Shown: positions 34,546 through 53,563 of the stretch, one piece after another
How the letters are laid out: each line of letters begins with the position of its first letter
Numbering within the stretch: the stretch's first letter is position 1
Assembly (NCBI RefSeq): GCF_001723305.1
Contig: NZ_LPWF01000026.1
Span: 62,001-126,000 of the forward strand
DNA from: Methyloceanibacter superfactus
GTDB taxonomy: Bacteria > Pseudomonadota > Alphaproteobacteria > Rhizobiales > Methyloligellaceae
Length of the DNA stretch: 64,000 bases
Reading direction: 5' to 3'
Made by a program: the position numbers and the translations under genes
The notes under the pieces: model-generated
What the model saw: the letters and a program-made list of their open reading frames with translations, nothing else
Database searches by the model: none
Told to the model about the DNA's origin: nothing

Positions 34546-36397
34546 ATGACCACTGAACCCCAGGACGCGCAAGCGGCGCTCGACGCCATCGAGAAGGACG
34601 TCGAGCTTAGGCGCGCCGATCCCGATGTGCTGATGCCGAAGCTCGCGACCGTGCTCCTGAGCCTTCAGGGAGACTCGATCTATCGCCCGCGCGTGCACCG
34701 GCTGATGGGTGTGGTGCATAACCGCCTGAAGCTCGACCGAGATGCGCTGCGCTTGTTGCGCGAAGCCAAGGCCTTGGCAGAGGCTGTCACGCCGCCGAAT
34801 TTCGGCGAACTCGCCAAGATCGGGCGAGAGACCGCGGTCGTTTATGCTTGGCGCGGCGACGATAAGCCGCGGCGGCCGAGCTCCTGCCGGCGCTGGCCTT
34901 CGCCACGCTCGCCGGCGATGACCGTGAAGCCGCCAAGATCATCGCCGAGTTCGGCCGGATCGAGCTCGAGGCGCACCGTTTCCGCAACGTCGCAATGCTG
35001 TTCCGCCATCTCGTGGCCCAGGGCGACAGCAGCAAATTGTCCTTCCGCGAGGCGCAGCGCATCCGCATCAATCTTTGCCAGGCGCTCAATCGGCTCGGCT
35101 CCCATGACGAAGTGCTGCACCACGTAGCCGCCTTGCGCGACGATCTGCCGGAGTCGGAGACGCGCCTGCATTTCTTGACACGGCTCGAGGAGGCCAAGGC
35201 TCTCGCCGCTTGCGCCGTTTCGATGAGGCGGAGCGCGCGCTGTTGGATGCCGAGGCGCTGCTGCCGGCGAAGGACAGCGCCTTCGAGCATGCCGAGTTCA
35301 TTCAGGCGGTGACCGAGCTGCAGGAGGTCAAAGGCGGACCGCCCGCGGTCAAGAGTCTCGAACACCTCATCTCCGAATATGACGAGCAGAATCTGGTGGT
35401 GCGGGAGGCCGTGGCGCGGCGGGCATTGGCCAGCGCCCTGTTCCAGCTCGACGAGAACGACCGGGCACGGGACGTCCTGGCGCAGGGATTGCGCAAGGCG
35501 CTGCGCAACAATCTCGTGGAGGTTGCGGACGATATCCGCGCCGACATGCTGAAGAGTGCCGGCGCCGATCACCTCGAGGAGCTGGCGGAGGCGATCGACC
35601 TCATCGGTGGCGGCACAGCGCTCGAGCGCCGCTTCATCCGGGTGTGCCCGCTCGGCAAAGGCGGCATGGGCGACGTCTGCCGCGCCATCGACCTCGGCGA
35701 CGGACGCCATGTGGCGCTGAAGACGATCGATCTCAGAGGACACGCCCCGGATCAGCGGCAAGCCGTCATCAACACGATCAAGACCGAGTATGCAGCGGCC
35801 GGATCGCTCGACGATCCGCGCTTCGCCCGCGTGCTCGATCTGCGTATGGCGCCGGGAGGCGCGCTCTATATCGTGCAGCGTTTCGTTGCCGGCCCGACCT
35901 TGCGCGAGGTCTATGAGTCCGGCGCGACGCCGCAACGTCTGCTGGCCCTGCTGGCGGGGACCGCGGACGCGCTGGCCGTGCTACACGCCCGTGGAATCGT
36001 CCATCGCGATCTCAAGCCGGAGAATGTCATCGTCGCGCGCGATGGGCGCGGCGGCGAGATGCCCGTGCTGATCGATCTCGGCATCGCGCTGGTGGCGGGA
36101 CGCCCCGATGCGCTCAAGCATTTCGGTACGGCCCCCTATGTGGCGCCGGAGCAGGCGGCCGGTGCAGCGGTCGATGCGCGGGCTGACATTTATGCGCTTG
36201 GTCAGATGATCGCTGAGATCTGGGGGGGAGAACTTCCCGCTCATTACAGGATCGGCAAGTTGTGGAAGAGAAATGCGCCGGGCGGGATGCCGCACGAGAT
36301 CGCCGAGCTGGTGCGCCGGATGCTGCTGCCAGATCCGGCACGCCGGTTGAGCGACCTCAAGGCGATCGCCGAGATGCTCAGGGCGCAGGCTCGGTAG
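34546..36397 (+). CDS. Soluble serine/threonine protein kinase with N-terminal helical-repeat region (two frameshifts)
   Basis: Reconstructed length is about 617 residues. Residues 1-340 are alpha-helical and TPR-like (DAQAALDAIEKDVELRRADP, then AAAELLPALAFATLAGDDRE after a missing base near 34867, and LRRFDEAERALLDAEALLPA after another near 35205). The kinase domain is intact: glycine loop LGKGGMGDV, VALK lysine, HRDLKPEN, DLG in place of DFG (LIDLGIAL) and YVAPEQAAG. No transmembrane helix. It converges on and overlaps by 20 bases the FHA-protease gene, whose FHA domain could read its phospho-threonine output (inference). Confidence 0.88.
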
Positions 36398-38158
36398 CGG
36401 GCTCATCACTCGGGGCCGTCCATTCATAAGCGTGAAGCTCGTATTTCGCGGGTTGGGCAACGAGGCTCCACACGATCACGTCGAGGGTTGTGGGCTCGGT
36501 CACCGTGACCCATGCGGTGGGCGCCAGCTCGAGTTCGCTCGTCTGGCGCTTGTCCTTCGCGTCGCGCAGGAACTGCGACGTCGCCTGATTCTTGACATTG
36601 ATGCCGATGGGCACGCCGTTCTCCGCATCGGCGATGAAGCCGTAGACTTTTCCTGGCACGGCTTTGAACGGGTAGCTCTTTGACACGAGCTTGAAGGACT
36701 GCACCTTGCCGGCGTCGAGCTTGCCGGCGCCGATCACCTCATTGGACGCCTTGCTCACCGCATAGCGCTTCTTGGCCAGCGCCTCGAAGTCGTCGACCGC
36801 CACATCGAAATAGTCGTCGAAGGCATGCGCGCTCGCGGTCCAATAGAGCTCGTCCTCGGCGAGTTCCTGCTCCGCCTTATCCTCGGCGAGCGCCTGCAGG
36901 AGATCGGCGCGTTGGGCGAAGTTGATCAGCGCCGCGCTCGGCAGCCGCACCTTGGCTGTTGCCGATTCCGTCTTGTCCTTGAACACGGTGGTGTTGCCGC
37001 CGTTGACGATGCCGACGACTTTGCCGCTCGGATCGATGAGAGGGCTGCCCGAGGCCCCGCCGGTCACCGGCACGGAATGCTGGATCAGCAGGCGGTGCTC
37101 GGGGTCGGCACGCACCATGAAGACGTCGGTGAGCGCGCTGATATGGCCGAAATGCAGCGTCCCGGGAGCCTTAGTGGCGGTGGCGCCGCCGGCCAGGCCC
37201 TCCACGGGAAATCCCACCGAGGCGACCGGCGTGCCGGGGGCGAGATCCTCCAACTCCTCTTGCGAGGCGAATGACAGCGTGGCGGGTAGCGCGATCTCGG
37301 AATCGATCTCGATGATGCCGACATCGTATTCGTTGATGAGATCGAGCGGGGTGAACTCGCCCCAGCGGGTCGTTCCTTGCGTCGCTTTGTAGGCCTTGAA
37401 GGCGAGATAGCCGGGGTGGGAGAGGACACCTTGGATCTCGATCTTGTCGCCGTTCGGCGCCACCAGGAAGAACTCCTTCTCCTTGCCCTTGATCGCCTCG
37501 GTCACATGGGCGTTGGTCGCGAGCTTGCCGGGCGCGAAGGCAAAGGCCGTGCCTTGCGCTTTCTCGACGCCGCCGTCTTCCTGGGCGACCAGATAGACGG
37601 CTTCTTCGAGGGTCTTCAGCGTCGCCGGCGAAAATTCCTTGGATGCGCGCTCGGCGGCTTCGGCCCGCGCAGCTCGATCTGGTCGGCAAGGGTGGAATGG
37701 AGATAGGTGAAATAGCCGAACAAGCCGATGAGCAAGACGGCGAGGAGGCCACCGCCGGTCGCGACCTTGCGGCCCAACCGCTGGCTGGAGGTGGTCATCT
37801 GGCTTTGGTCGGCTGTCACGGGGAGCCCCTCCACCGAGGGGGCGCCGATCTCGACCTTGAAGGTGGGTCCGACCTTGCGGCCGAGACGGAAGGTGCTGCC
37901 CGACTTCACCGGCGTTCCGTTGTCGGCGGGCTTGCCGTCCATCTCCACGTAGCGGGTCCCAAATAGCTCGACTGAATAGTCGCCTGCCTTGGTGCGGCGC
38001 AGTTCGAAATGGCGGCGCCCGACCACATCGTATTCAGGTGGATAGACGACTTGCGCCGTCTCGCGGTCGCGGCCGAAGACGACCGCATCGACGTTATCGC
38101 CGTAGGTTTGCGTCTCGCCTTTGAGCGGTCCATCGAGATGGGTGATGGTGATCGTCAT
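36378..38158 (-). CDS. FHA - transmembrane - trypsin-like protease fusion (one frameshift)
   Basis: About 593 residues reconstructed. Residues 1-110 form an FHA phosphopeptide-binding domain (VVFGRDRET, VVGRRHFELRR, SGSTFRLGRK). One transmembrane helix spans about 131-153 (GGGLLAVLLIGLFGYFTYLH). A base is missing near 37660, after which AARAEAAERASKEFSPATLK leads to a DegP/S1C-like peptidase. It has His in ATNAHVTEA, Asp in YDVGIIEID and Ser in GGASGSPLID. The last 150 residues form an extra beta-rich domain. FHA would be cytoplasmic and the protease periplasmic. It starts 11 bases after the Crp chimera. Confidence 0.86.
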
Positions 38159-38169
38159 GGTCTTTCTTC

Positions 38170-40968
38170 TCAGGTCTTGGCAGGCTTCACGGGTTCTACG
38201 GTAAAGATCGGTAGCGACGGGCGGCCCCGGAGGGCCTGGCGTTCGCCATCATCAGCGGACGGGATCGCTTCGGCCCGCCCGACCGGCACGAGCCGCACGT
38301 CGTTCCCTTGGTCGAACTTGGCCTGCGCCGCATAGGCCTCGGTGGCCAGCACACAGTCCAGCGGAAGTCCGGGCAGATCGTCGGCAGACTGAAGCCGGGC
38401 GATGAGCTTCTTGTCAGGCTTGAGATTGGTCCCGAGCACGAGGCCGAAATCGCAGATCACTCGTAAGGGATGCTTGGCCTTGCGCGCCGCTTCGGCCGCG
38501 GCGCGGCCAAGCTCCAGCGCCTGCTGTGTGGTCTCGGTCAGGAAGCAGCAGCCCCGGCGGCCGTCACGATGGGTGCGCTCGATGCTTTCCAGACCTTTGG
38601 TCAGCTTCTTGAACAGCTTGTCGAGCGTAGCGCTGCCCGCCTTGGCGCCGGGGGCGCCGTCCCACAGAAACACCACGGGCCGGAACGCAGTTTCGCCCCG
38701 GCCGCGCTTGGGGCGCGGGGGCCGCTTGTGCGGATAGGGAATGAGGTCGAAGGGCCGGCCGGCCCCGCGCAATCGGCGAATACGCGATTGGCGCCGGCGA
38801 CCGTATCGGGCTCGGTGTTGTCGGACACGACGATAAGCCCGCACGCGGTCTGCAGCATGGCCGCCCGCTGAAGCGCGCAGCCAGCGGCGTAGCGAAAGCC
38901 ATAGAAGAAGTAGCCATCCACATCGCGCTCGGCCGGGTCTTGGGTATCCATGATGGTGAGCGAACACGGGCCGTGCATTCCATCGAGAATGGCGCGGAAG
39001 CGCTTCTCCCATTTGCCAGGCTCGCCCGGTGGATCGCCGATCTTGACCGACATGTCGACGAAGCGCTCGGTGTTGAACGGCAACACCGCCTCGAACTCGG
39101 CGCCCATCTTTAGGGCGGTCTCGGCGAGAATGATGTCGGAGCCGCTGGCGAGCGCCCCATAGACGAAGCCAACATTGTGCGCGGCGAACAGCTTCTCGGC
39201 CGCTTCCCGGATCTTGGATTCGGTGGCGTCTTGCGCGGCGGCGTCGAGCTCGGAGCCTCTGAACAGATGTCCCGAGATCACCGCGACATTGCGCGGATGG
39301 AGCGCATCGATGAGCACGTCGAGATTGCTGTCGAGCACGGAGGCGATACGGCGGAGCTGGAGAATGGTGGACGCTTGGCACCGTCATCGGCGCCGCGCGC
39401 GGTTCGCGCCTTGAGCAACACGTCCTTGGCTTCGCCGCCGCGATCCACGATCAGGAGCGCCTCGGCCAGGGTGGCGAGCGGCCAATACTCCTCCGAATCC
39501 TGCGGCACGGTCGCGGTGAGGAGTGCGGCGATCTTCCGCGCGGTGACGGTATCTCCGGCGCAGAGCGCCATGGTGGCGGCGTTGATGCCGGGGTAGTAGC
39601 CCTGCTTCGCTTGGTGGAGACGGTGATAAGCCTCGAAGGATGCGCCTGCCTGCTTGCGCCGGGCGTCCTTGGTCGCGGCTGCGAAGGCGCGCTCTTTCAG
39701 AACCCGCGCGTGGAGTGCGGCAAGATCCTCGACGAGCTGCGCTTCCCATTGGGTATCGTCACGGCGAACAGGCTCCGGCTCGTCTTCGCCATAGCCCTCA
39801 TCGACGAAGGGATCGGCGATGATGCGGTCCATGGGGAGAAACGGATTGCGCCGGGCCTACGCACCGCGTCTTCCAGCACGCTCAAGTCGCCGCTCATGGG
39901 CAGGCCAGAGCGGGTCAGCAGATCGAGCGCGCCTTTGGCGTCGCCGCTGCGCGCGGCCGCGAGCGCGGTGCGGTGCTGCAATTCCGGACTCGACGGATAG
40001 TAGCGCATGATGTCGAGGCCGATATTGCGGGCGCGGATCAAATCGCCATGGGCAATCGCCGCGTCGATATCGGCGATGGTGCGTTCCAGCGCCGCGCGGC
40101 TCCGGGCGGCGCGCAGGCTCGCGAGCCGGCTGATGCGCTGATAGTCGATGATCTCGATCTGCTGGCTGCGCGCGCCGGTCCGCAACAGCCCCGCGCGCTC
40201 CCACTCGTTGAGGCGGCGGCTGATCGTCTCGCGGCTGACGCCGAGATCGGCGGCGATATCGCTTTGAGCGATTTTGCGCGGAAAGCGAACACGATTACCT
40301 TCGGCAATGCCGCTATCGGCCGAGAGCTCGACCAGCCAATCGGCCAGGACCAGATCGGGAAAGCTGTGCACCTTGTCGTGCTCCTGCTTTAGGGCCGACA
40401 GGAGACGCTGTGAGCCGATGCGGATGAGACGGGCACGCAACACCGCGTCTTCGGCGATGAGATCGGTGAGCAGCGACAGCGGCAGTGGCACGATCGCCGC
40501 GGGCGTCAGCGCGATGGCCGAAGTGGAGCGCTTGACGGGCTTCGGCAGAAGACCCTGCTCCAGCAGCTCGAGCTCCCCGAAGATCTCGCCATGCACGATG
40601 CGTTCGAAGCGCAGCGTGCGCTTACCGGACGGCAACTCGATCTGCACCAAGGGATCGACGTCGAGTCCATCGCCGCTTGCCCGTGCGCCAACGAGAAAAT
40701 AGACGGCATCCGCCGCATCCCCCGGGCGGAACACACATTCACCGGGATCGAGCGTGCGTATGGAGAGGCGTGCGCGGCGGAGATGCGCGCGGGCTGCGTC
40801 GCTCGTCCCACGCATCAGCGCGGATCGCGCGACCAGATCTTCGAGGGTCTCGTTCATGCCTTTAGGAGCAACGCCTATCGGAATCTTGGCCGACGGAACG
40901 AGAGGGTAGTCTATTTCGGCGGTTCCCACCAACCGCCCCGCGGGATGCAAGGCGATATTCATCGTCAT
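38170..40968 (-). CDS. Crp-family regulator fused to helical-repeat, SLOG-like and cyclase-like regions (three frameshifts)
   Basis: About 930 residues reconstructed. The Crp part has a cyclic-nucleotide domain with FGELELLEQG and, after an insert, KRSTSA, so the phosphate-binding Arg is kept. Its winged helix IAADLGVSRETISRRLNEWE keeps the R-E-x3-R pattern of the CRP recognition helix. After a shift near 39845 comes a TPR/TRAFs-binding-like region (LHQAKQGYYPGINAATMALC). After another near 39375 comes a SLOG-like Rossmannoid segment (NVAVISGHLFRGSEL, VYGALASGSDIILAETAL). A last shift near 38762 leads to a divergent nucleotide-cyclase-like end (LRVICDFGLVLGTN, DCVLATEAYAAQ). ATG 40968 overlaps the preceding stop as ATGA. 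ATG 40857 is an alternative. Confidence 0.82.
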
Positions 40969-41117
40969 CCCCACAGCGTGCCGGATCCGGATACGGCGAA
41001 CACCCACGCCAGACGATGCGCCTCGAGCGGCGCCAAAAGGTGTTCGAGACCCGCGAACGGCGAGACCATCACCGCCGCGGCGAGGTAGGTCATCAGGAGA
41101 TCGTCCAGCTGTCTCAT
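40965..41117 (-). CDS. Small membrane protein, 50 aa, coupled to the Crp chimera
   Basis: MRQLDDLLMTYLAAAVMVSP followed by FAGLEHLLAPLEAHRLAWVF, with one or two short hydrophobic helices. GAGGG stands before ATG 41117. The stop overlaps the start of the Crp chimera (ATGA), a classic sign of translational coupling. A CRP-like palindrome lies 64 bases upstream. Not recognised as a named family. Confidence 0.55.
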   Translation of the reverse strand: MRQLDDLLMTYLAAAVMVSPFAGLEHLLAPLEAHRLAWVFAVSGSGTLWG

Positions 41118-41180
41118 GGGCCAACCCTCGCGTTGCACCAACATCGAACCAGAGTGTGGCACGTGACGGGACGGGGCTTC

Positions 41181-41196
41181 TGTGAGGCTCCTCACT
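41181..41196. promoter_or_regulatory. CRP-like palindrome before the small membrane protein/Crp genes
   Basis: TGTGA-GGCTCC-TCACT matches the CRP consensus TGTGA-N6-TCACA at nine of ten conserved bases. It lies between the TIR-TPR gene and the next gene of the operon, 64 bases from the start codon, a suitable place for an internal regulated promoter. Confidence 0.6.
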
Positions 41197-41221
41197 GTCG
41201 GCGAGGATCGCAGCGTCGGTA

Positions 41222-43411
41222 TCAGCGCTCGGTCGCTTCGGCTTGACGCCGGATCTCTTCGATCTTGTTGCGGGTAGCGGCGACATCGTCCCGCCACACG
41301 GCCTTGTCCGGAAACGCCTCGGCCATCGTGCGCGCGATCTCCAGCGCTTCGTCATAGGCCGCGATCGCGCCGTCCCAATCGCCCGCGCCCAGCCGGATGG
41401 CGCCGATCTTTTGCAGGACCACATTGAGGTCCGGCTGAGCCATGATGTTGTCGGGGTCGGCAGCCGCGATCTTGCGGAAGATTTCCAAGCTTTCCCTATA
41501 GGCGGCGAGCGCCCCGGCGGGATCTCCGCCGGCTTGCCGGAGCGTGCCCATGGTGTTGAGGGCCAGCGCGACGCCGCGCTGCCAGGTCAAATTGTCCGGG
41601 TCGAGCGACGAGACGCGCCGCGCGATCTTCACCCGCGCCTCCCAGGCCTCGCGTGCGCCAGCGACATCGCCCATGGCGATCTTGGCGTAGCCGAGCCGAT
41701 TCAGCGTGATCGCGATGTCCTCGAGTAGAACCGAGTTGTTGGAGTCGCCTTCGGCAAGACGGCGCAGGATCTCCAGAGCCTTCTCCTGAGCGGCGAGAGC
41801 GGCGGCGTTATCGCCGAGGTCTTGTTGCGCCTGACCGACCAAGCTGTACATGGAGGCGACGTCGCGCTGCCAGGTGGTGTTGCCCGGGTCGAGTTCGGCG
41901 AGTGAGAGGCGTATCGCCAAGCTTTCCTGGAAGGCCTCGAGCGCGCCCTTGGCATCGCCGCTCTGCAGCTTCAGATGCCCCACCCGCTCAAGCGAGATGG
42001 CGACGCCCCGCCGCCACTCGGTGTTGCTCAGATCCGACGCGGCAAGGCGCCGGTCCAGGTCGAGCGCTTCGTTGCAGGCTTCGAGCGCCCCCGCCGCGTC
42101 GCCGGTGTCCCGCTTGAGGTCGCAAATCTTACCGAGGGGTACGGGAATGTATTGCCGCCATTCGAATGTGTCGCGGTCGGTTTCGCCGAGGCGGCGCCGG
42201 ACCGCCAGACTCTCCTCATAGGCGGCGAGGGCACCTGCCGTGTCGCCGGTTTGCGCCTTGAGGTCGCCGATCCGCTCTAAGTTCACGCTGACGTCGAGCT
42301 CGAGCTGCGGATTGTCCGGATCGCGCGCGGCCAGCGCCTGGCGAATGTCCAAGCTCTCCTGATAGGCGGCGAGCGCTTCGGCGCTTTCGCCCATGTCGCG
42401 CTTGACGTCCCCAACATGCACTAGCACGACCGAGAGTCGCCGCTTTGCGTGGCTGTCGTTCGGCTCCTCGGCGATCGCGTTCCTGGAAACGGCAAGCGCC
42501 GCATCGGCATTTTTGAGGGCGGCGTCGAGATTGCCGGCGGCGCGATAGGTCTGGGCGAACTCGTCGAGCATGGCGATCTTGCTGCGCACGAGCTCGGGAT
42601 TCTCAGGATCCGTCTCGGTAAGACGCTCGACCGTGCTGCGGGCCTGGCCGAGAATCCTGTCGAGACTTTCGACGCGGATGCCTTCCACGTCGCGCAGACC
42701 TTGCGCGATCTGGAAGATCAGGCCGTTCACGGTGTCCTTGGCGGCCGCAAAGTTTTTCTCGGCCCTGTCCTGCTGGTAGCGGGCGATGATGCCGGCGGTC
42801 ACCGCGCCGATGGCCAGCACGAAAAGGAGGACGGACGCGCTGACCGCAAGGGTAAGGGCGCGCCGCTGCTGGCGGACCTCCTGCGACAGGAGATCCTCCT
42901 TTGGCATGCCGTGAATGGCGGCGGCGAAGTCGGCGCCGAGTTCGATGAACGCGGCTTTGCGCGGGTCGGCGCCTTCACGATAGGGGCGGAGGTCGATCCA
43001 TTTCGGCTCGGCCGTGAAACGGCCCTTCAGCACGCTGGGCAGCGGCGTATCCGCCGTCCACCTGAAATCGTCGGTCTTGTTGTCCCAATCGATCTCGCCG
43101 TCGGTCACCCCGATGAACAGCGTGTCGGGACTCTTATGGGTGAGCCAATACTCGACCTCTTTGCCGACCCAGGGCGAGTCGGCCGCTTCGGGCGAGGTCA
43201 GCAGAATCAGGTAACGCGACTGGCTGAGCGCCTCTTCGATCGACGGCCAAAGTTGGGGCGTGGCCGACAGGCTCGTGTCGTCGCGGAACACCCGCAGCCC
43301 ACGCCGCTGATACCAGGGTTTGCCGAGCTTCTGGATCACCGATTGCAGCGCCGCGGCGACCGGTTTGTCCTTGGCGTGGCTGTAGGAAATGAAGGCGTCG
43401 TAGACCGGCAC
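41222..43411 (-). CDS. TIR - transmembrane - TPR receptor-like protein
   Basis: Intact, 729 residues from GTG 43411 (VPVYDAFISYSHAKDKPVAA). The TIR domain (1-135) has YDAFISYSH, LRVFRDDTSL, YLILLTSPEAADSPWVGKEV with conserved acidic residues in the last helix, and FIGVTDGEIDW. Such domains act as NADases or scaffolds. A transmembrane helix follows at about 185-208 (LAVSASVLLFVLAIGAVTAG), then NFAAAKDTVNGLIFQIAQGL and about nine 48-residue TPR units (ERIGDLKAQTGDTAGALAAY). It heads an operon with the 50-residue protein, the Crp chimera and the FHA-protease. The same TM-TPR module occurs in the STAND protein. Confidence 0.9.
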   Translation of the reverse strand: MPVYDAFISYSHAKDKPVAAALQSVIQKLGKPWYQRRGLRVFRDDTSLSATPQLWPSIEEALSQSRYLILLTSPEAADSPWVGKEVEYWLTHKSPDTLFIGVTDGEIDWDNKTDDFRWTADTPLPSVLKGRFTAEPKWIDLRPYREGADPRKAAFIELGADFAAAIHGMPKEDLLSQEVRQQRRALTLAVSASVLLFVLAIGAVTAGIIARYQQDRAEKNFAAAKDTVNGLIFQIAQGLRDVEGIRVESLDRILGQARSTVERLTETDPENPELVRSKIAMLDEFAQTYRAAGNLDAALKNADAALAVSRNAIAEEPNDSHAKRRLSVVLVHVGDVKRDMGESAEALAAYQESLDIRQALAARDPDNPQLELDVSVNLERIGDLKAQTGDTAGALAAYEESLAVRRRLGETDRDTFEWRQYIPVPLGKICDLKRDTGDAAGALEACNEALDLDRRLAASDLSNTEWRRGVAISLERVGHLKLQSGDAKGALEAFQESLAIRLSLAELDPGNTTWQRDVASMYSLVGQAQQDLGDNAAALAAQEKALEILRRLAEGDSNNSVLLEDIAITLNRLGYAKIAMGDVAGAREAWEARVKIARRVSSLDPDNLTWQRGVALALNTMGTLRQAGGDPAGALAAYRESLEIFRKIAAADPDNIMAQPDLNVVLQKIGAIRLGAGDWDGAIAAYDEALEIARTMAEAFPDKAVWRDDVAATRNKIEEIRRQAEATER

Positions 43412-43852
43412 GGAACATCTCTCTGCTTCGACTGGGCCAACCTTAAGTCGCAAGACCGCGAGGGGCTAGGTCCCGCAGCCGGCCCGCCAGCGTTTACGGG
43501 CCAGAAGCTATAGGCCATCGGGGCGGCGCCGCTGTGTGACGAGGCTCACAATGCGCGCGCGCAAGCACCCTTATCTCCGTCCTTGCCAACGGGGCTCTCC
43601 TCCCAATGGCCAACGAAAACTGACGTGTTCGGTTCGTGGAACACGATCGGCGCGAGGCTTGTCCCACCAACCGAGCACCGGCGAGCTGAAAGGGGAAAAG
43701 GGTCCGGGTCCGCTCCTGCCCTGGCCTGTCAGCATCCCTCCCTTTCAGCCTAGGCGGGCGCAACGGTTCCCCCACCTTGCGCCCGCGCCCTTCTTACGAT
43801 GGGATTTCCTTCAAGGAGCGTGGGTGAGATAACGGGAGACCGGAGCAAGACC
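43412..43852. other. 441-bp intergenic region between divergent TIR and SGNH genes
   Basis: No gene is convincing here. Overlapping frames on both strands lack homology and ribosome-binding sites. The region holds a perfect CRP-type palindrome at 43535-43550 and presumably both promoters. I see no terminator or RNA gene. Confidence 0.6.
43535..43550. promoter_or_regulatory. Perfect CRP-consensus palindrome upstream of the TIR operon
   Basis: TGTGA-CGAGGC-TCACA is identical to the E. coli CRP consensus half-sites with the correct six-base spacer. It is centred about 131 bases before the TIR start codon, and about 310 bases before the divergent SGNH gene. The downstream operon encodes a Crp-family protein with the matching recognition helix. 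Confidence 0.7.
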
Positions 43853-44610
43853 ATGTTCAAACACGCACAGAGCCGCCGTGCCGTCCTAGGCGGCGCCATC
43901 GCCACCACCGCCGCCGCCATGACGTTCACCGCTGGTGCGCGCGCCGAACCCACCAAGAGCCCCAAGCACATCGTCCTTCTCGGCGATTCGGTGCTCGATA
44001 ACGGCGCCTATGTGGGCAACGGACCCGATGTGGCGCAGCAGCTCCGCATGCGGCTGCCGGCGGGTGACACCGCCACGTTGGAGGCAGTCGATGGTTCGAT
44101 CACCGACGGCGTTCGGGTCCAGTTGCAACTCGTGCCGGACGATGCCACCCATCTCGTGGTGAGCGCCGGCGGCAACGACGCGCTGCACTACTCCAAGGTC
44201 CTCGAAGAGAAAGCCAACTCTGTGAGCGAGGCGCTGGACAAGCTCGGCGCTGTGCGCGAGCGGTTTACGGCCGACTACGGCAAGATGTTGGACGCGGTCG
44301 CCGCGCGGGGTCTGCCTGCGGCGTGCTGCACGATCTACGACGCCCGCTTTCCCGACAAGAAGCAGCGGCGGCTTGCCTCGGTGGGGCTGACCATCTTCAA
44401 CGACTGCATCACGCGAGAGGCCGCGCGCGCGGCTTCGCCCTGATCGACCTGCGCGTCATCTGCTGCAAGGCGGAAGACCTCGCCAATCCTATCGAGCCGT
44501 CGGTCATAGGCGGGGCGAAAATCGCCCGCGCCATCGCCGATTTCGCCGCCGAGTATGACAGGAAGCGCGGCCGGTCGGAGGTGTTCGCCCAAGGCGACGC
44601 CGCGATATAG
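43853..44610 (+). CDS. Exported SGNH/GDSL hydrolase-like protein (frameshift)
   Basis: ATG 43853 opens with a twin-arginine-like signal (SRRAVLGGAIATTAAAMTF). Block I is IVLLGDSVLDNGAYVGNG with the nucleophilic Ser, and block III is VVSAGGNDALHYSKV. After a missing G near 44425 the end reads ARGFALIDLRVICCKAEDLA and NPIEPSVIGGAKIARAI. In related proteins the Asp-x-x-His of block V is near this point, but I do not see an unambiguous His. About 252 residues. Likely a periplasmic esterase or lipase of unknown substrate. Confidence 0.8.
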
Positions 44611-47656: not shown

Positions 47657-50600
47657 ATGCGATCGGTTCGAGTATTCGTCTCCTCCCCGGGCGACACGCA
47701 TTTCGAAAGAATGCGCGTCGAGCGGGTCGTCGAACGCCTGAACGGCGAGTTCGCCGGCATCGCGCGCCTTGAGGCCATCCGCTGGGAAGGCCAACACTAC
47801 AAGGCGCACGCCACCTTCCAGCAGCAGATTCCCGAAGCATCGGATTGCGACATCGTGGTCGCCATCCTGCGCCACCGCCTGGGCACGGAACTGCCGGAAG
47901 ACTTTCAGACCATGCCCAATGGCGAGCCGTATCCATCGGGGACGGCCTATGAAATTCTGTCAGCTATCGAAGCGAGCAAGGAAAAGTCGGTTCCCGACGT
48001 CTATGTGTTCCGCTACAGCGAGCCGCCGACCGTGCGCCTCGACGACGAGAGCACCAACCGCCTCGTCACCAATCAATGGGAACGGCTCAAGACCTTCTTC
48101 AAGAATTGGTTCCAGACGGCGGACGGCAAGTTCAAGCTTGCCTTTCACACCTTTCAGAACACCGATGCCTTCGAGGCCGATGTCGACAAGCTGCTGAGGA
48201 CCTGGCTGGAGGAGAAGATCCTCAAGGGCCGCTCGGTTCTGTGGCCGGTCGATATCAAGGGCTCGCCCTTCCGCGGGCTGGCGGCATTTGGCGCCAAGCA
48301 TGCGCCGGTATTCTTTGGCCGCTCCCGCGACATCACCAAAGCCGTCGACGGCCTGAAGGACGCGGGCGAGCGTGGATCGCCCTTCCTGCTCGTGGTGGGC
48401 GCCAGCGGTGCGGGCAAATCTTCGCTGGCCCTTGCGGGTCTCGAGCCGCGCTTGACGACGCCCGGCGTCGTCCCGTCCGTCGATCAGTGGCGGGTCTCGG
48501 TGATGCGGCCTGGAGAGCATCCAAACGGTCCCGTGGCCGGGCTCGCCGCCGCGCTTCTACAAGGGGGCGAGGATCTCGATGACGACGATATGGGCCGGCT
48601 CCAAGCGTTGCCGGAGATCGCCGAAAGCGACTATGCGTCGGAGGATGAATTGGCGGGCCTGCTCGCCCATGCCGACGAGACCTGCGCCAAGCCAATCTTG
48701 CGCGCGCTCGAGCGGGTTGCCGAGGCGGAGGCGAAAGCGAGCGGGCACGACCGGGCGGTGCGGGCCGACCTGCTGATCGTGGTCGATCAACTCGACGAAC
48801 TGTTCGCCGGGCAAGTCAATGCCGAGGAACGGGCGCGTTTCGCCAAACTCCTTGCCCTTCTCGTCGACACGGGACGCGTGTGGGTCATCGCCACACTGCG
48901 CGCGGATCTCTATGAGCGTTTCCTGAAAGAGCCCGATCTGCTTGCCCTGAAGAGCAAGGGGGCGACCTATGATTTGGCGCCCCCCGGTGCGGTGGAGATC
49001 GACGAGATCATTCGCGGTCCGGCCGCCGCCGCAGGCCTCGTCTACGAGACGGACCCCGAGACCGGCGACCGGCTCGACGATCGTCTGATTGCCGACATCG
49101 ACCGGCCCGACATGCTGCCACTGCTTCAGTTCACGCTCAACTTCCTGTTCGAGAAGCGGGTCACGGAAGACGGCGAGACCACGCTCACCTTGAAAGCATA
49201 CGACGAACTCGGAGGGCTGGCCGGTGCCATCGACCGGGAAGGCGAGCGCGCCATCGCCGGCCTTGGCGCGGCGGAGCATGAGCGTCTGCCGCGCCTGTTG
49301 CGGCAATTGGCGACGCCCGCGCACACGGCCGAGCCCGGTGGAGGCGGCGCCAATGCGGGGCTTTCCATTTTGTCAGTGCCGTTCGAGGCGGCGGCCTACG
49401 ATCCGCCTTCTGAACGGCTGGTTCGCGCGCTGGTCGATGCGCGCATCCTGTTGTCCTCAGGGAGCGAGCAGAAGGCGACCATCCGCTTGGCGCATCAGCG
49501 TGTGCTGGAGAATTGGCGACGGGCACAGGAGATTGTCGCCGCCAACGCGGAGTTCTATCGCATCCGCGACGATGTCGATGGCTTGCGCCGCCGCTGGGAG
49601 AACGCCAACAAGGCGCGCGATCTGCTGATACCCAAAGGCGTACCGTTGGCGGAAGCCGAGAGCATCGCCAAACGCTATCCCGGCGAGCTGGGACCCCCGA
49701 CGCTTGGCTTCATCGCCGCTTCGGGCAAGCGGGCGCGATTCAGGCAACGCCTCGTTGGCAGCGCGGCGGTGGTCTTCGCCGTGCTGGCGGTTGGCGCCAC
49801 CGTTGCCGGTGTGCTGGCGCTTCAGGCCGAGCGACGGGCCAAGCGAAACTTCGACGTGGCAAGCGCGCTCGTGACCGACATCGCGCGAGGCTTGCGCAAC
49901 GTCGAGGGAATGGGCGTCCAAAGCCGCAAGAAGATCTTCGCCCAGGTGAGCAAGACGCTCGACGATGCCGTGGGGGCCTCGCCGGACGACGCGCAACTGC
50001 TCGGCATGCAGGCCACCATGTTCGAGGAGTTTGCCTCGACACACACGGCCGAGGGGGAATCCGCGCAAGCGGCGGAAAGCACCGCCAGGAGCCTAGAGAT
50101 CAAGCTGCGCCTGGCCGAGCTCGATACCTATGATGACGGCAAAGGCGGGCAGCAGGACATCTCCAGCACGCTGGAGCAGATCGGCGATCTCAAGCTCAAA
50201 GCTGCGGACGACGCGGGCGCGCTTGCGGTCTACGAGCAGATCCTCGCCAACCGGCGCAAGCTGGCAGAGGCGGAAAGTGGCAATCCGGAACGCCATCGCG
50301 ACGTCGCGGCGACGCTCGACACGATCGGCGACCTCAAGCTCCGGGCCGCCGATTATCAAGGCGCGCTCGAAGCCTATGCCGAAGCCGTCGCTATCAGCCG
50401 CGACGTGGTGCCGATGGATGCCGCAAAGGTCGAATGGCGCCGCGATCTCGCACTCGCTCTGAGTGCCGACGGGTACGCCAAGCAGAGCGCCGGCGACCTC
50501 GCCGCTGCTTTGGCCGCCTATGAGGAGAGCCTGGGCTTTTCGGAAGGCCTCGTCGCGACCGATAAGACCAATGTCTTGTGGCGCGCCGACGTCGCCTCCG

Positions 50601-53563
50601 CTCTGATGAACATCGGCAATGTGAAGCTCGACTCCGGGGCCGAAGACGGCGCCATCGAGGCTTATGCCAAGAGCCTCGAAATTCGCCGCCAGCTCGCGGC
50701 CGAAGATGAGACGAATGGCTATCTGCCGCGGACCATGGCGGCCAGCTTGAGCGGGCTTGGCGACGCCAAACTTGCCAAGGGCGACCGGAAGGCGGCACTT
50801 GCCGATTTCGAGGAGAGCGCCGCCATCTTGCGCCGTCTCGTGGCCGCGGACGCCGACAACGCGGCCTTGCAACGCGACCTTTCCGTCAGCATCAACCGCG
50901 TTGGCGACGTGAAGCGCGATTCCAATGATCGCTTGGGCGCCTTAAGGGCTTATGAGGAAAGTCTCGCCATTCGCCAGAGGTTGGCGCAAGCCGGCGGCGG
51001 CGATACGCAAGCGCTCACCGACCAGATCTACGTGCTGCAGAGAATCGGCGACGTGAAGCGCAACGCGGAGGACTATGACGGCGCGGTCGCCGCGTTCGAG
51101 CCGAGCTTGGCCATCGCGCGCAAGCTGGCGGAGAAGGACCCCAACAATGTTGCGTGGCAGCGCGAGATTTCGGCCAACCTGACGAAATTGGGCGCGGCCA
51201 AGAAGGGCGCCGGCGATAGTTCGGGCGCGCTTGCCGCTTACGAAGAGAGCCTCGCCATTCGCCGGGAACTGCCCCAGACCGACTTGGCGGCATGGCAATT
51301 CGACGTGGCGTCCAATCTTGAATCGATCGGCGATCTCAAACTCGCGGCCGGCGACAAGGAAGGCGCGCTTGCCACCTTCGAGGAGATGCTCAAGATCGAC
51401 CGCGTCCTGGTGGCGAGCAAGCCCGACGATCTTCAGGCGAAACGCAACCTCACCCTCAGTCTGAACCGGCTCGGAGACGCCAAGCGCGACCTCAACGACA
51501 AGACGGGCGCGCTTGCGGCCTACGAGGAGTGCTTGGCCATTCGCCGGGATCTGCTGGCAGCTGGAAAGACCACCCAGCGGCAACAGGATGTCAGTCTCAT
51601 CCTCGAAAAGGTCGGCGATCTCAAACGTGACGCGGGCGACAACGCGGCGGCCCTCGCCATTTACGAGGAGATGCTGGTCATTGATCGCGCGACCGACGCG
51701 GCCGAGCCCAACACCATCAAATGGCAACGCTATGTGGCGATCAGCCTGAAGCGCGTGGGTGAGGCGAAGCTCGCGCTCGACGACGCGGAAGATGCGCTGG
51801 CCGCCTTCAATGAAAGCCTCGCCATACGCCGCAAGCTGGTCGAAGCCGACAAGGGTAACACCAAGCACCTGTTCGAGATTGGCAGCCTCTTGGAGGAGAT
51901 CGGCGATATCAAGCACGATGCCGGTGACACCTCCGCGGCGATCACGTCCTATCGCGAAAGTGCAAAGGAGCGGCAGGATCTTGCCGCGACGCTGCGGCAC
52001 GATGGCAGCCGGCGCAGCGCACTCTCCGCATACAAGCAGGCGCTCGGGGTGGCCCGAAAGCTCGTGGAGGCCGAGCCTGACAACCTCGATTATCAACACG
52101 ACGTCTCAGTCTATCTCCAGGAACTCGCCGCGCTCAAGCTGGGCCTCGAAGATCCCGAAGGCGCGCTCTCCGATTACGAGGAGGCTCTGGCTATTCGCCA
52201 GCGTCTCGTCGAGGCCAACGAGAAGAACTCGACTTGGCTGTACGGTGTCGTGGAGACGCTCGAGAAGATTGGCGATCTGAAGCGCGATCAGGGTGACCAG
52301 GCGGCGGCGCTCAAGGCCTATGAGGCGAAAGTCGAGGCCGACCGAAAGCTCATTGCGGCGGAGCCCGACGATCGCGATTGGCAACGGAATTTGGGAATTG
52401 GTCTGCAGCGCATCGCCGAGGTGAAGCTCAAGACGGGGGATGAACAGGGGGCCCTGGCGCTCTACCAGGAGAGTCTCGATATCCGCAGGGAACTGGCGAA
52501 AGAGGATCCCAACAGCGAGCGCTTCCGGCAGGACCTGTCGCTAACCCTCGAGCGGCTTGGAGACCTCAAGCGCAGCATGGGCGACAATGACGGTGCGCTC
52601 GCTCTCTATGTCGAGATGCTCGGCTTCGACCGGGCGGTGGCCGCCGCCAATATCGGCGACACCAAGCGGCAGCGTGTGGTGTCGGTCGACCTCAACAAGA
52701 TCGCCGACCTGAAACTCAAGGCCGGCGATACGAAGGGCGCGCTCGCCGCGGCCGAGGAGAGCCTGGCCATCGCGCGGCATATCGCGATCTCGGCCCCGGA
52801 AAATCTCGACTGGCAGCGCGATATCTCGGTCAGCCTGGAGCGGGTGGGCAATACCCAGTCCAAGCTTGGCAACCCGCGCGCGGCATTGCGCGCCTATGAG
52901 GAGATGCTGACCATCGACCGCATGGTTGCCGACACCGACCGCAAGAATATCCAGCGGCAGCGAGAAGTGATCCTCAGCCTGAACAAGGTGGGCAATATGC
53001 GCGCCGAAATCGACGACTTCAGCGGCGCGCTCGCCAACTACGAAGAGGGGCTGGTCCTCGCCCGCAAGCTCCGCAAGGACGACAACGTCCAGTCGCTCAA
53101 CGACCTGGTGGCCAGCCTCAAGAATGTCGGCGAGATGAGGGTCAAGCTGGGCGACCTCAAGGGGGCGCTCGCGGCTTACGAGGAGGATCTGGAGCTGAGG
53201 CGAAAGATCGCGGCAGCCGAGCAGGACGCGTATTCGCGTCGAGAGCTGGCTATCAGCCTCGAGCGCGTTGGCAATGTGCGGCGAGATATGGGAGACGTCG
53301 CGGGAGCCTTCGCAGCCTATAAGGAGGACTTGGGCATCACGCGTGCACTCGCCGAGGCGCGAAAGGGCGAGACGTCGCCGCAGACCGATCTGGTGATCAG
53401 TCTTTACAAGTTCGCCCAGACGTCAAAGGGCGCGGACCAAGATGCGGCCATCGACGAAGCGCTCGGAATCCTCGCGACCCTTGACGGACAAGGCAAGCTG
53501 GACGAGTCGCAAAAGGGCTGGAAAGACTCCTTCCTGTCTTTGCGCAACGGCTCGACCCCTTAG
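47657..53563 (+). CDS. DUF4062 - STAND NTPase - transmembrane - TPR receptor, 1968 aa
   Basis: Intact over 5.9 kb. Residues 1-170: DUF4062 (VRVFVSSPGDTHFERMRVER). Residues 215-680: a STAND-type ATPase with FRGLAAFGAKHAPVFFGR, Walker A GASGAGKSSL (about 248-257), Walker B LLIVVDQLDELFAG (about 371-384), VIATLRADLYERF and a winged-helix/arm (RLAHQRVLENWRRA). Residues about 695-718 form a transmembrane helix. Residues 765-1940: some 24 TPR units of 48 residues. STAND proteins oligomerise on ligand recognition; DUF4062 is probably the effector or adaptor, and TPRs the sensor. The TM-TPR half is homologous to that of the TIR protein. No toxin gene is adjacent. Confidence 0.92.
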   Translation: MRSVRVFVSSPGDTHFERMRVERVVERLNGEFAGIARLEAIRWEGQHYKAHATFQQQIPEASDCDIVVAILRHRLGTELPEDFQTMPNGEPYPSGTAYEILSAIEASKEKSVPDVYVFRYSEPPTVRLDDESTNRLVTNQWERLKTFFKNWFQTADGKFKLAFHTFQNTDAFEADVDKLLRTWLEEKILKGRSVLWPVDIKGSPFRGLAAFGAKHAPVFFGRSRDITKAVDGLKDAGERGSPFLLVVGASGAGKSSLALAGLEPRLTTPGVVPSVDQWRVSVMRPGEHPNGPVAGLAAALLQGGEDLDDDDMGRLQALPEIAESDYASEDELAGLLAHADETCAKPILRALERVAEAEAKASGHDRAVRADLLIVVDQLDELFAGQVNAEERARFAKLLALLVDTGRVWVIATLRADLYERFLKEPDLLALKSKGATYDLAPPGAVEIDEIIRGPAAAAGLVYETDPETGDRLDDRLIADIDRPDMLPLLQFTLNFLFEKRVTEDGETTLTLKAYDELGGLAGAIDREGERAIAGLGAAEHERLPRLLRQLATPAHTAEPGGGGANAGLSILSVPFEAAAYDPPSERLVRALVDARILLSSGSEQKATIRLAHQRVLENWRRAQEIVAANAEFYRIRDDVDGLRRRWENANKARDLLIPKGVPLAEAESIAKRYPGELGPPTLGFIAASGKRARFRQRLVGSAAVVFAVLAVGATVAGVLALQAERRAKRNFDVASALVTDIARGLRNVEGMGVQSRKKIFAQVSKTLDDAVGASPDDAQLLGMQATMFEEFASTHTAEGESAQAAESTARSLEIKLRLAELDTYDDGKGGQQDISSTLEQIGDLKLKAADDAGALAVYEQILANRRKLAEAESGNPERHRDVAATLDTIGDLKLRAADYQGALEAYAEAVAISRDVVPMDAAKVEWRRDLALALSADGYAKQSAGDLAAALAAYEESLGFSEGLVATDKTNVLWRADVASALMNIGNVKLDSGAEDGAIEAYAKSLEIRRQLAAEDETNGYLPRTMAASLSGLGDAKLAKGDRKAALADFEESAAILRRLVAADADNAALQRDLSVSINRVGDVKRDSNDRLGALRAYEESLAIRQRLAQAGGGDTQALTDQIYVLQRIGDVKRNAEDYDGAVAAFEPSLAIARKLAEKDPNNVAWQREISANLTKLGAAKKGAGDSSGALAAYEESLAIRRELPQTDLAAWQFDVASNLESIGDLKLAAGDKEGALATFEEMLKIDRVLVASKPDDLQAKRNLTLSLNRLGDAKRDLNDKTGALAAYEECLAIRRDLLAAGKTTQRQQDVSLILEKVGDLKRDAGDNAAALAIYEEMLVIDRATDAAEPNTIKWQRYVAISLKRVGEAKLALDDAEDALAAFNESLAIRRKLVEADKGNTKHLFEIGSLLEEIGDIKHDAGDTSAAITSYRESAKERQDLAATLRHDGSRRSALSAYKQALGVARKLVEAEPDNLDYQHDVSVYLQELAALKLGLEDPEGALSDYEEALAIRQRLVEANEKNSTWLYGVVETLEKIGDLKRDQGDQAAALKAYEAKVEADRKLIAAEPDDRDWQRNLGIGLQRIAEVKLKTGDEQGALALYQESLDIRRELAKEDPNSERFRQDLSLTLERLGDLKRSMGDNDGALALYVEMLGFDRAVAAANIGDTKRQRVVSVDLNKIADLKLKAGDTKGALAAAEESLAIARHIAISAPENLDWQRDISVSLERVGNTQSKLGNPRAALRAYEEMLTIDRMVADTDRKNIQRQREVILSLNKVGNMRAEIDDFSGALANYEEGLVLARKLRKDDNVQSLNDLVASLKNVGEMRVKLGDLKGALAAYEEDLELRRKIAAAEQDAYSRRELAISLERVGNVRRDMGDVAGAFAAYKEDLGITRALAEARKGETSPQTDLVISLYKFAQTSKGADQDAAIDEALGILATLDGQGKLDESQKGWKDSFLSLRNGSTP
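49980..53480 (+). repeat. Array of about 24 degenerate 144-bp coding repeats
   Basis: The protein period is 48 residues with a pattern like L-x-x-IGDLK-x6-GALAAYEESLAIRR-x-LA-x-D-x-N-x-W-x-RD. Units differ enough to be aligned only at protein level. A shorter array of the same unit is in the TIR gene. Confidence 0.85.

Follow-up and report, generated by a model that had tools for sequence, protein, structure and literature searches.

Two palindromes of the TGTGA-N6-TCACA type, which we call A1 and A2, stand within a TIR-containing locus of Methyloceanibacter superfactus and, judged by comparison with related genomes, are real, conserved control sites. We propose, at close to even chances, that they belong to a small Crp-type regulon in which a Crp-TPR-S chimera encoded at the locus activates the TIR-TPR gene, itself, and genes for secreted proteins from class II sites. 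In this model, a dimer of the chimera would bind A1 and A2 through its R-E-T-I-S-R helix and would activate from a class II position, with the site centre at about -41.5, at two promoters, the first leading to TIR-TPR and the second to a small gene and the chimera, which would amount to positive autoregulation; outside the locus, the same regulator would also activate a pair of paralogous genes for secreted proteins and the gene of a secreted YARHG protein. What we observed is the presence and conservation of the sites, the helix, the distance between sites and a -10-like element, and how small the regulon is; from these we infer that the chimera reads the sites, in which direction it controls transcription, and what signal it senses. 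Coordinates refer to the window, which is the whole stretch of 64,000 nucleotides that was analysed.

An earlier note on this DNA had reported both palindromes, and they are indeed present. A1, TGTGACGAGGCTCACA, is a perfect predicted operator at 43535..43550 (strand unassigned), about 124 bp 5' of the GTG at which the TIR-TPR gene probably starts. A2, TGTGAGGCTCCTCACT, at 41181..41196 (strand unassigned), agrees with the pattern at nine of ten positions, and its centre lies about 71 bp upstream of the small gene. Inside the window alone, the number of such sites is not significant: with at most one mismatch, 2 were observed and 0.89 expected, two or more occurring in 23 of 100 shuffles, and with at most two mismatches, 10 were observed and 12 expected. 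The 3.1-Mb genome as a whole is enriched in the pattern, since it contains 3 perfect sites and 20 with at most one mismatch, compared to 0 and 3 for a reversed control pattern. Summed over 17 genomes of the genus, there are 29 perfect sites versus 4 for the control.

What raises A1 and A2 above chance is that the same places are occupied in two other genomes. In G008, the segment that runs from TIR-TPR to where the small gene starts can be aligned with the window (72% over 2.8 kb), and perfect sites are found at both positions (L078:3988 for A1 and L078:6294 for A2). In G015, the order is a divergent SGNH gene, two perfect sites 70 bp apart, and the chimera; the upper site (L057:1436) aligns with A1, and the lower (L057:1366) is equated with A2 by position, so that A2, imperfect in this genome, is perfect in both relatives. 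Since the two G015 sites adjoin without TIR-TPR between them, this gene has been inserted or lost between two operators. Across four groups of sites, 38 of 40 core columns are invariant, compared to 8 of 24 in the spacer (p = 1.6e-7) and 12 of 120 in the flanks; most sites came from an exact-match search, so the identity of the core is partly ascertained, whereas the position of the sites in matching promoters is not. That the palindromes arose by chance and lack any function would fit the two hits of the window, which alone are not unusual, but the positional conservation elsewhere and the contrast between core and spacer make this very improbable; conservation already refutes it for A1, the case of A2 being weaker.

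The genes of the locus lie on the minus strand. TIR-TPR (41222..43411; TIR_2 and TPR_12), whose start was placed by comparison with G008, keeps the WVGKE motif of the TIR domain and has a hydrophobic, likely transmembrane stretch between its TIR and TPR parts. The small hydrophobic ORF of 50 amino acids (40965..41117) has its start and frame kept in G008 and gave neither a Pfam nor a plasmid match. The chimera comprises a Crp-type module with the first TPR part (39697..40857; cNMP_binding at residues 34-137, HTH at residues 171-243) and the rest, with TPR-S / MAP3K_TRAF_bd and a C-terminal region (38182..39847). Parts of an FHA and trypsin-like protease protein occupy 36378..38158. A divergent SGNH/GDSL hydrolase gene on the plus strand (43799..44610) adjoins A1. 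PADLOC returned weak hits only.

Several of these genes are broken by frame changes, three in the chimera downstream of its Crp part and one each in the FHA-trypsin and SGNH genes, which could be either assembly errors or decay. The Crp part of the chimera is intact; its C-terminal part is out of frame here, which counts against our proposal, and is one open frame in G015, and the FHA-trypsin gene, split here, is a single 631-aa ORF in that genome. A neighbouring ORF of 1968 amino acids (47657-53563) is also intact, and the NTPase-like protein that it encodes has a long C-terminal TPR array resembling that of TIR-TPR.

When 17 sites were aligned on their centres, the most conserved column outside the operator was +28 (G, 91% weighted), the next being C-A at +30/+31; the G-n-C-A pattern, too, reaches its maximum at this offset. 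If the site centre is at -41.5, these columns become -14, -12, and -11, which is where an extended -10 element would lie; a spacing of this kind predicts activation of the CRP class II type. A2 and both groups of secreted-protein sites fit the -41.5 spacing, A2 of this genome being one base longer; the agreement is poorer for A1 and not clear for the sites of the YARHG and HAD genes. Placed from the spacing, the predicted TIR-TPR promoter would have the -10-like element TATAGC (43507..43512, minus strand) 31 bases past the A1 centre, and a candidate extended -10-like element, TGcCACACT (41153..41161, minus strand), lies 28-36 bases past the A2 centre. The earlier note assigned both sites to one operon. 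Each site holds, but TIR-TPR on the one hand and the small gene with the chimera on the other each have their own site followed by a promoter-like element and may therefore form two transcription units.

The same geometry bears on the direction of control. The chimera might bind and repress its own operon until TPR-S senses invasion, as with CapW or BrxR; regulators of defence operons from other families act in this way, and the tandem sites of G015 could serve repression. In A2 and both secreted groups, however, the predicted start lies about 41.5 bases downstream of the centre, which puts the site at an activator position and not over the start, and we find repression improbable. We regard the chimera as a probable activator of the operon that encodes it.

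The aligned sites define an extended motif, TTTGTGAG-N4-CTCACAAAG, which, with at most three mismatches, occurs in five places of the genome and in none for the control. One of the five, C23:78150, resembles chance. The loci that carry the motif are the TIR/chimera locus, two paralogous secreted-protein genes, and one gene for a secreted YARHG protein; A2 of this genome exceeds the three-mismatch limit. Because there are only about five such loci in the genome, the motif marks a small dispersed regulon and not a global one. A separate global CRP regulon, which the earlier note had considered as a challenge to its reading, is rejected on these counts of perfect, near-perfect, and extended-motif sites. 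Contrary to what that note had proposed, the circuit is also not self-contained, for the same motif stands before at least three other loci.

The two paralogous genes encode secreted proteins of about 190 residues that have no Pfam or NCBIfam match. This family is found in only 5 of the 17 Methyloceanibacter genomes, precisely the five that carry this type of motif. Its members (L087:4162-4743 on contig C16 and L160 on contig C30 of this genome, together with L085, L079, L082, L083, and L084) consist of two repeats with a Cys pair in each.

Two other interpretations of the dyad were discarded. Some sites form TGTGAG-N4-CTCACA stems, so an RNA hairpin was considered; however, the inner pair often fails to form (G-A, C-C, T-C) whereas the TGTGA core is conserved, which agrees better with a protein dyad. 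The half-site TTGTGAG resembles lacO, and a lac-type operator was rejected given that the half-site spacing is 4 here and not 2.

The chimera itself has the features expected of a reader of TGTGA. The recognition helix SRETISRR, already pointed out in the earlier note, is confirmed in the sequence at residues 208-215 of the Crp part (40213..40236, minus strand) and contains the equivalents of R180, E181, and R185 (E. coli CRP numbering), the Arg-Glu-x3-Arg signature of the TGTGA-reading subgroup; the helix is the same in G015. The HTH belongs to the Crp/Fnr family (HTH_Crp_2, 53.2 bits, curated cut-off 27), and the cNMP fold is recognised as well (cNMP_binding, 33.1 bits, curated cut-off 27.5). 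The Crp part matches M. tuberculosis (Mtb) CRP (E = 1.2e-11) and GlxR, which are also the best Foldseek hits of a structural model of moderate confidence (pLDDT 75.8). R180, E181, and R185 contact TGTGA (PMC11253593), GlxR reads TGTGA-N6-TCACA (PMC4254451), and the motif of Mtb CRP resembles the E. coli CRP motif (PMC4117774). Since R-E-x3-R is kept and the nearest solved relatives read TGTGA-N6-TCACA, autoregulation is plausible. Operators stand before the chimera, or before the matching contig end, in this genome, G008, and G015, the contigs of the last two breaking inside or beside the chimera. The same operator precedes regulator and effector genes in this genome and in G008, and tandem operators precede the chimera in G015. 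Overall, we would give the chimera about one chance in two of being the reader of A1 and A2.

Among further chimeras, a scan of contigs detected only the Methyloceanibacter PFL27 and Acuticoccus copies, and a search across the order yielded a single additional one, in the genus Acuticoccus; a candidate in G065 was discarded, being an antiporter with a cNMP domain. The Acuticoccus chimera (L058) is distant (35%), its helix is changed to SRRTVAVH, and no TGTGA-N6-TCACA with at most one mismatch was found in the surrounding 16 kb; the altered helix together with the missing sites speaks for the chimera as reader. A TIR-type protein and an NTPase gene are close by, which means that the conflict-type neighbourhood recurs there.

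One observation is awkward for the chimera as reader. At the two secreted-protein loci, perfect sites persist in G001 and G012, and neither the chimera nor the FHA-trypsin gene was found in these incomplete draft assemblies (77% and 93%), which also tells against a self-contained circuit; gaps do not easily explain the absence of the chimera from both genomes together. At the first secreted locus, the spacers of G001 and G012 differ and the core is intact, which hints that something still reads this site. When a tree was built from one shared Fnr-type gene, the five motif-bearing genomes did not group as one clade apart from G002.

The persistence of these sites favours a competing explanation, in which they serve a different regulator, either an R-E-x3-R paralogue or an unrecognised factor, and the chimera is merely one of its targets. 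We consider this a credible possibility, though clearly below even chances. A paralogue with a REVISR helix, X, is encoded by G012 (L164) and by most members of the genus, and candidates of the R-E-x3-R type with REVISR are encoded at C25:160830 and C8:13526. Nevertheless, X is also present in genomes without the motif, and the sites beside the X gene deviate at positions 6-7 and in their flanks. In six genomes, the motif near the X gene is a different one, TGTGACTnGGnTCAC, and for this reason X is disfavoured as the candidate reader of A1 and A2. In addition, G001 contains no PF13545 protein, that is, no Crp-type HTH at all, so under this explanation a non-Crp factor would be needed there.

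The earlier note mentioned a phosphate-binding Arg in the nucleotide pocket and suggested a cyclic-nucleotide or related signal. The Arg is there (of the cAMP-contacting residues of CRP, Arg82 is matched by Arg110 and Glu72 by Glu95), but a cyclic-nucleotide signal is not supported. Thr127/Ser128 of CRP correspond to Ala/Leu in the chimera (alignment to 3d0s) and to Thr/Leu and Ala/Leu in the two G015 copies, and the distant homologue from Acuticoccus has lost the Glu, its cNMP domain scoring under the Pfam cut-off. DdrI, with Ala/Tyr at the 127/128 positions, binds DNA without cAMP. Given the Ala/Leu pair and this precedent, the C-terminal TPR-S part (the Pfam Tetratricopeptide Repeats-Sensor) would be a likelier sensor than the cAMP pocket. 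A cyclase-like or SLOG-like fold is a tentative lead for the C-terminal region, in which Pfam detected none. Overall, our results partly support the earlier reading.

With CRP, GlxR, and M. tuberculosis CRP, the chimera shares the fold, the HTH, R-E-x3-R, TGTGA-N6-TCACA, and a class II-like spacing. It differs from them in its identity of about 20-24%, its fusion to TPR-S, the replaced adenine contacts Thr127/Ser128, and a set of about five targets instead of a global regulon; the flank, TTTGTGAG/CTCACAAA, is unlike that of E. coli CRP. CapW, BrxR, CapK/CapS, and RptR are likewise encoded with an immune-type operon and have palindromes in their own promoters, but they have WYL or other folds and are mostly described as repressors, whereas the regulator proposed here has a Crp fold, its sites lie at an activator-like position, and some of its targets are outside the locus. 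In conflict systems, CRP-like wHTH domains or genes have been reported near TIR, trypsin, FHA, and kinase modules (Kaur et al. 2020, PMC7159879); the portions of that work on NTP-dependent conflict systems to which we refer describe no Crp-TPR-S fusion and no cognate operators.

Little is known about how bacterial immune-type operons are turned on, and most of the examples that we found in the literature are repressors of other folds. If our proposal is true, a regulator combining a Crp fold with TPR-S and having few, sharply defined operators would be a tractable model of an activator, and the link between the TIR operon and two uncharacterized secreted proteins would offer a direct readout for the signal. 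A bolder version, which we regard as rather unlikely, is that the single-chain Crp-TPR-S protein senses conflict without a cyclic nucleotide and activates itself, the TIR effector, and the secreted proteins, tying a conflict operon to the envelope.

Further sites occur in these genomes. The TGTGACTnGGnTCAC sites are located at L089:4486, L089:5765, and L185-L190 (contig C25 of this genome and its relatives), and in this genome the locus adjoins small secreted proteins and a catalase-peroxidase-like gene. A perfect TGTGA-N6-TCACA with a class-1 flank stands before a HAD-type hydrolase gene in one genome only (L080:4090, G001). Finally, TGTGACGAACGTCACA is kept at one locus in four genomes, G004, G005, G013, and G014 (L064, L060, L072), where the gene of a small secreted protein lies on one side of it and that of another secreted protein on the other, with a PQQ-type substrate-binding-like gene nearby.
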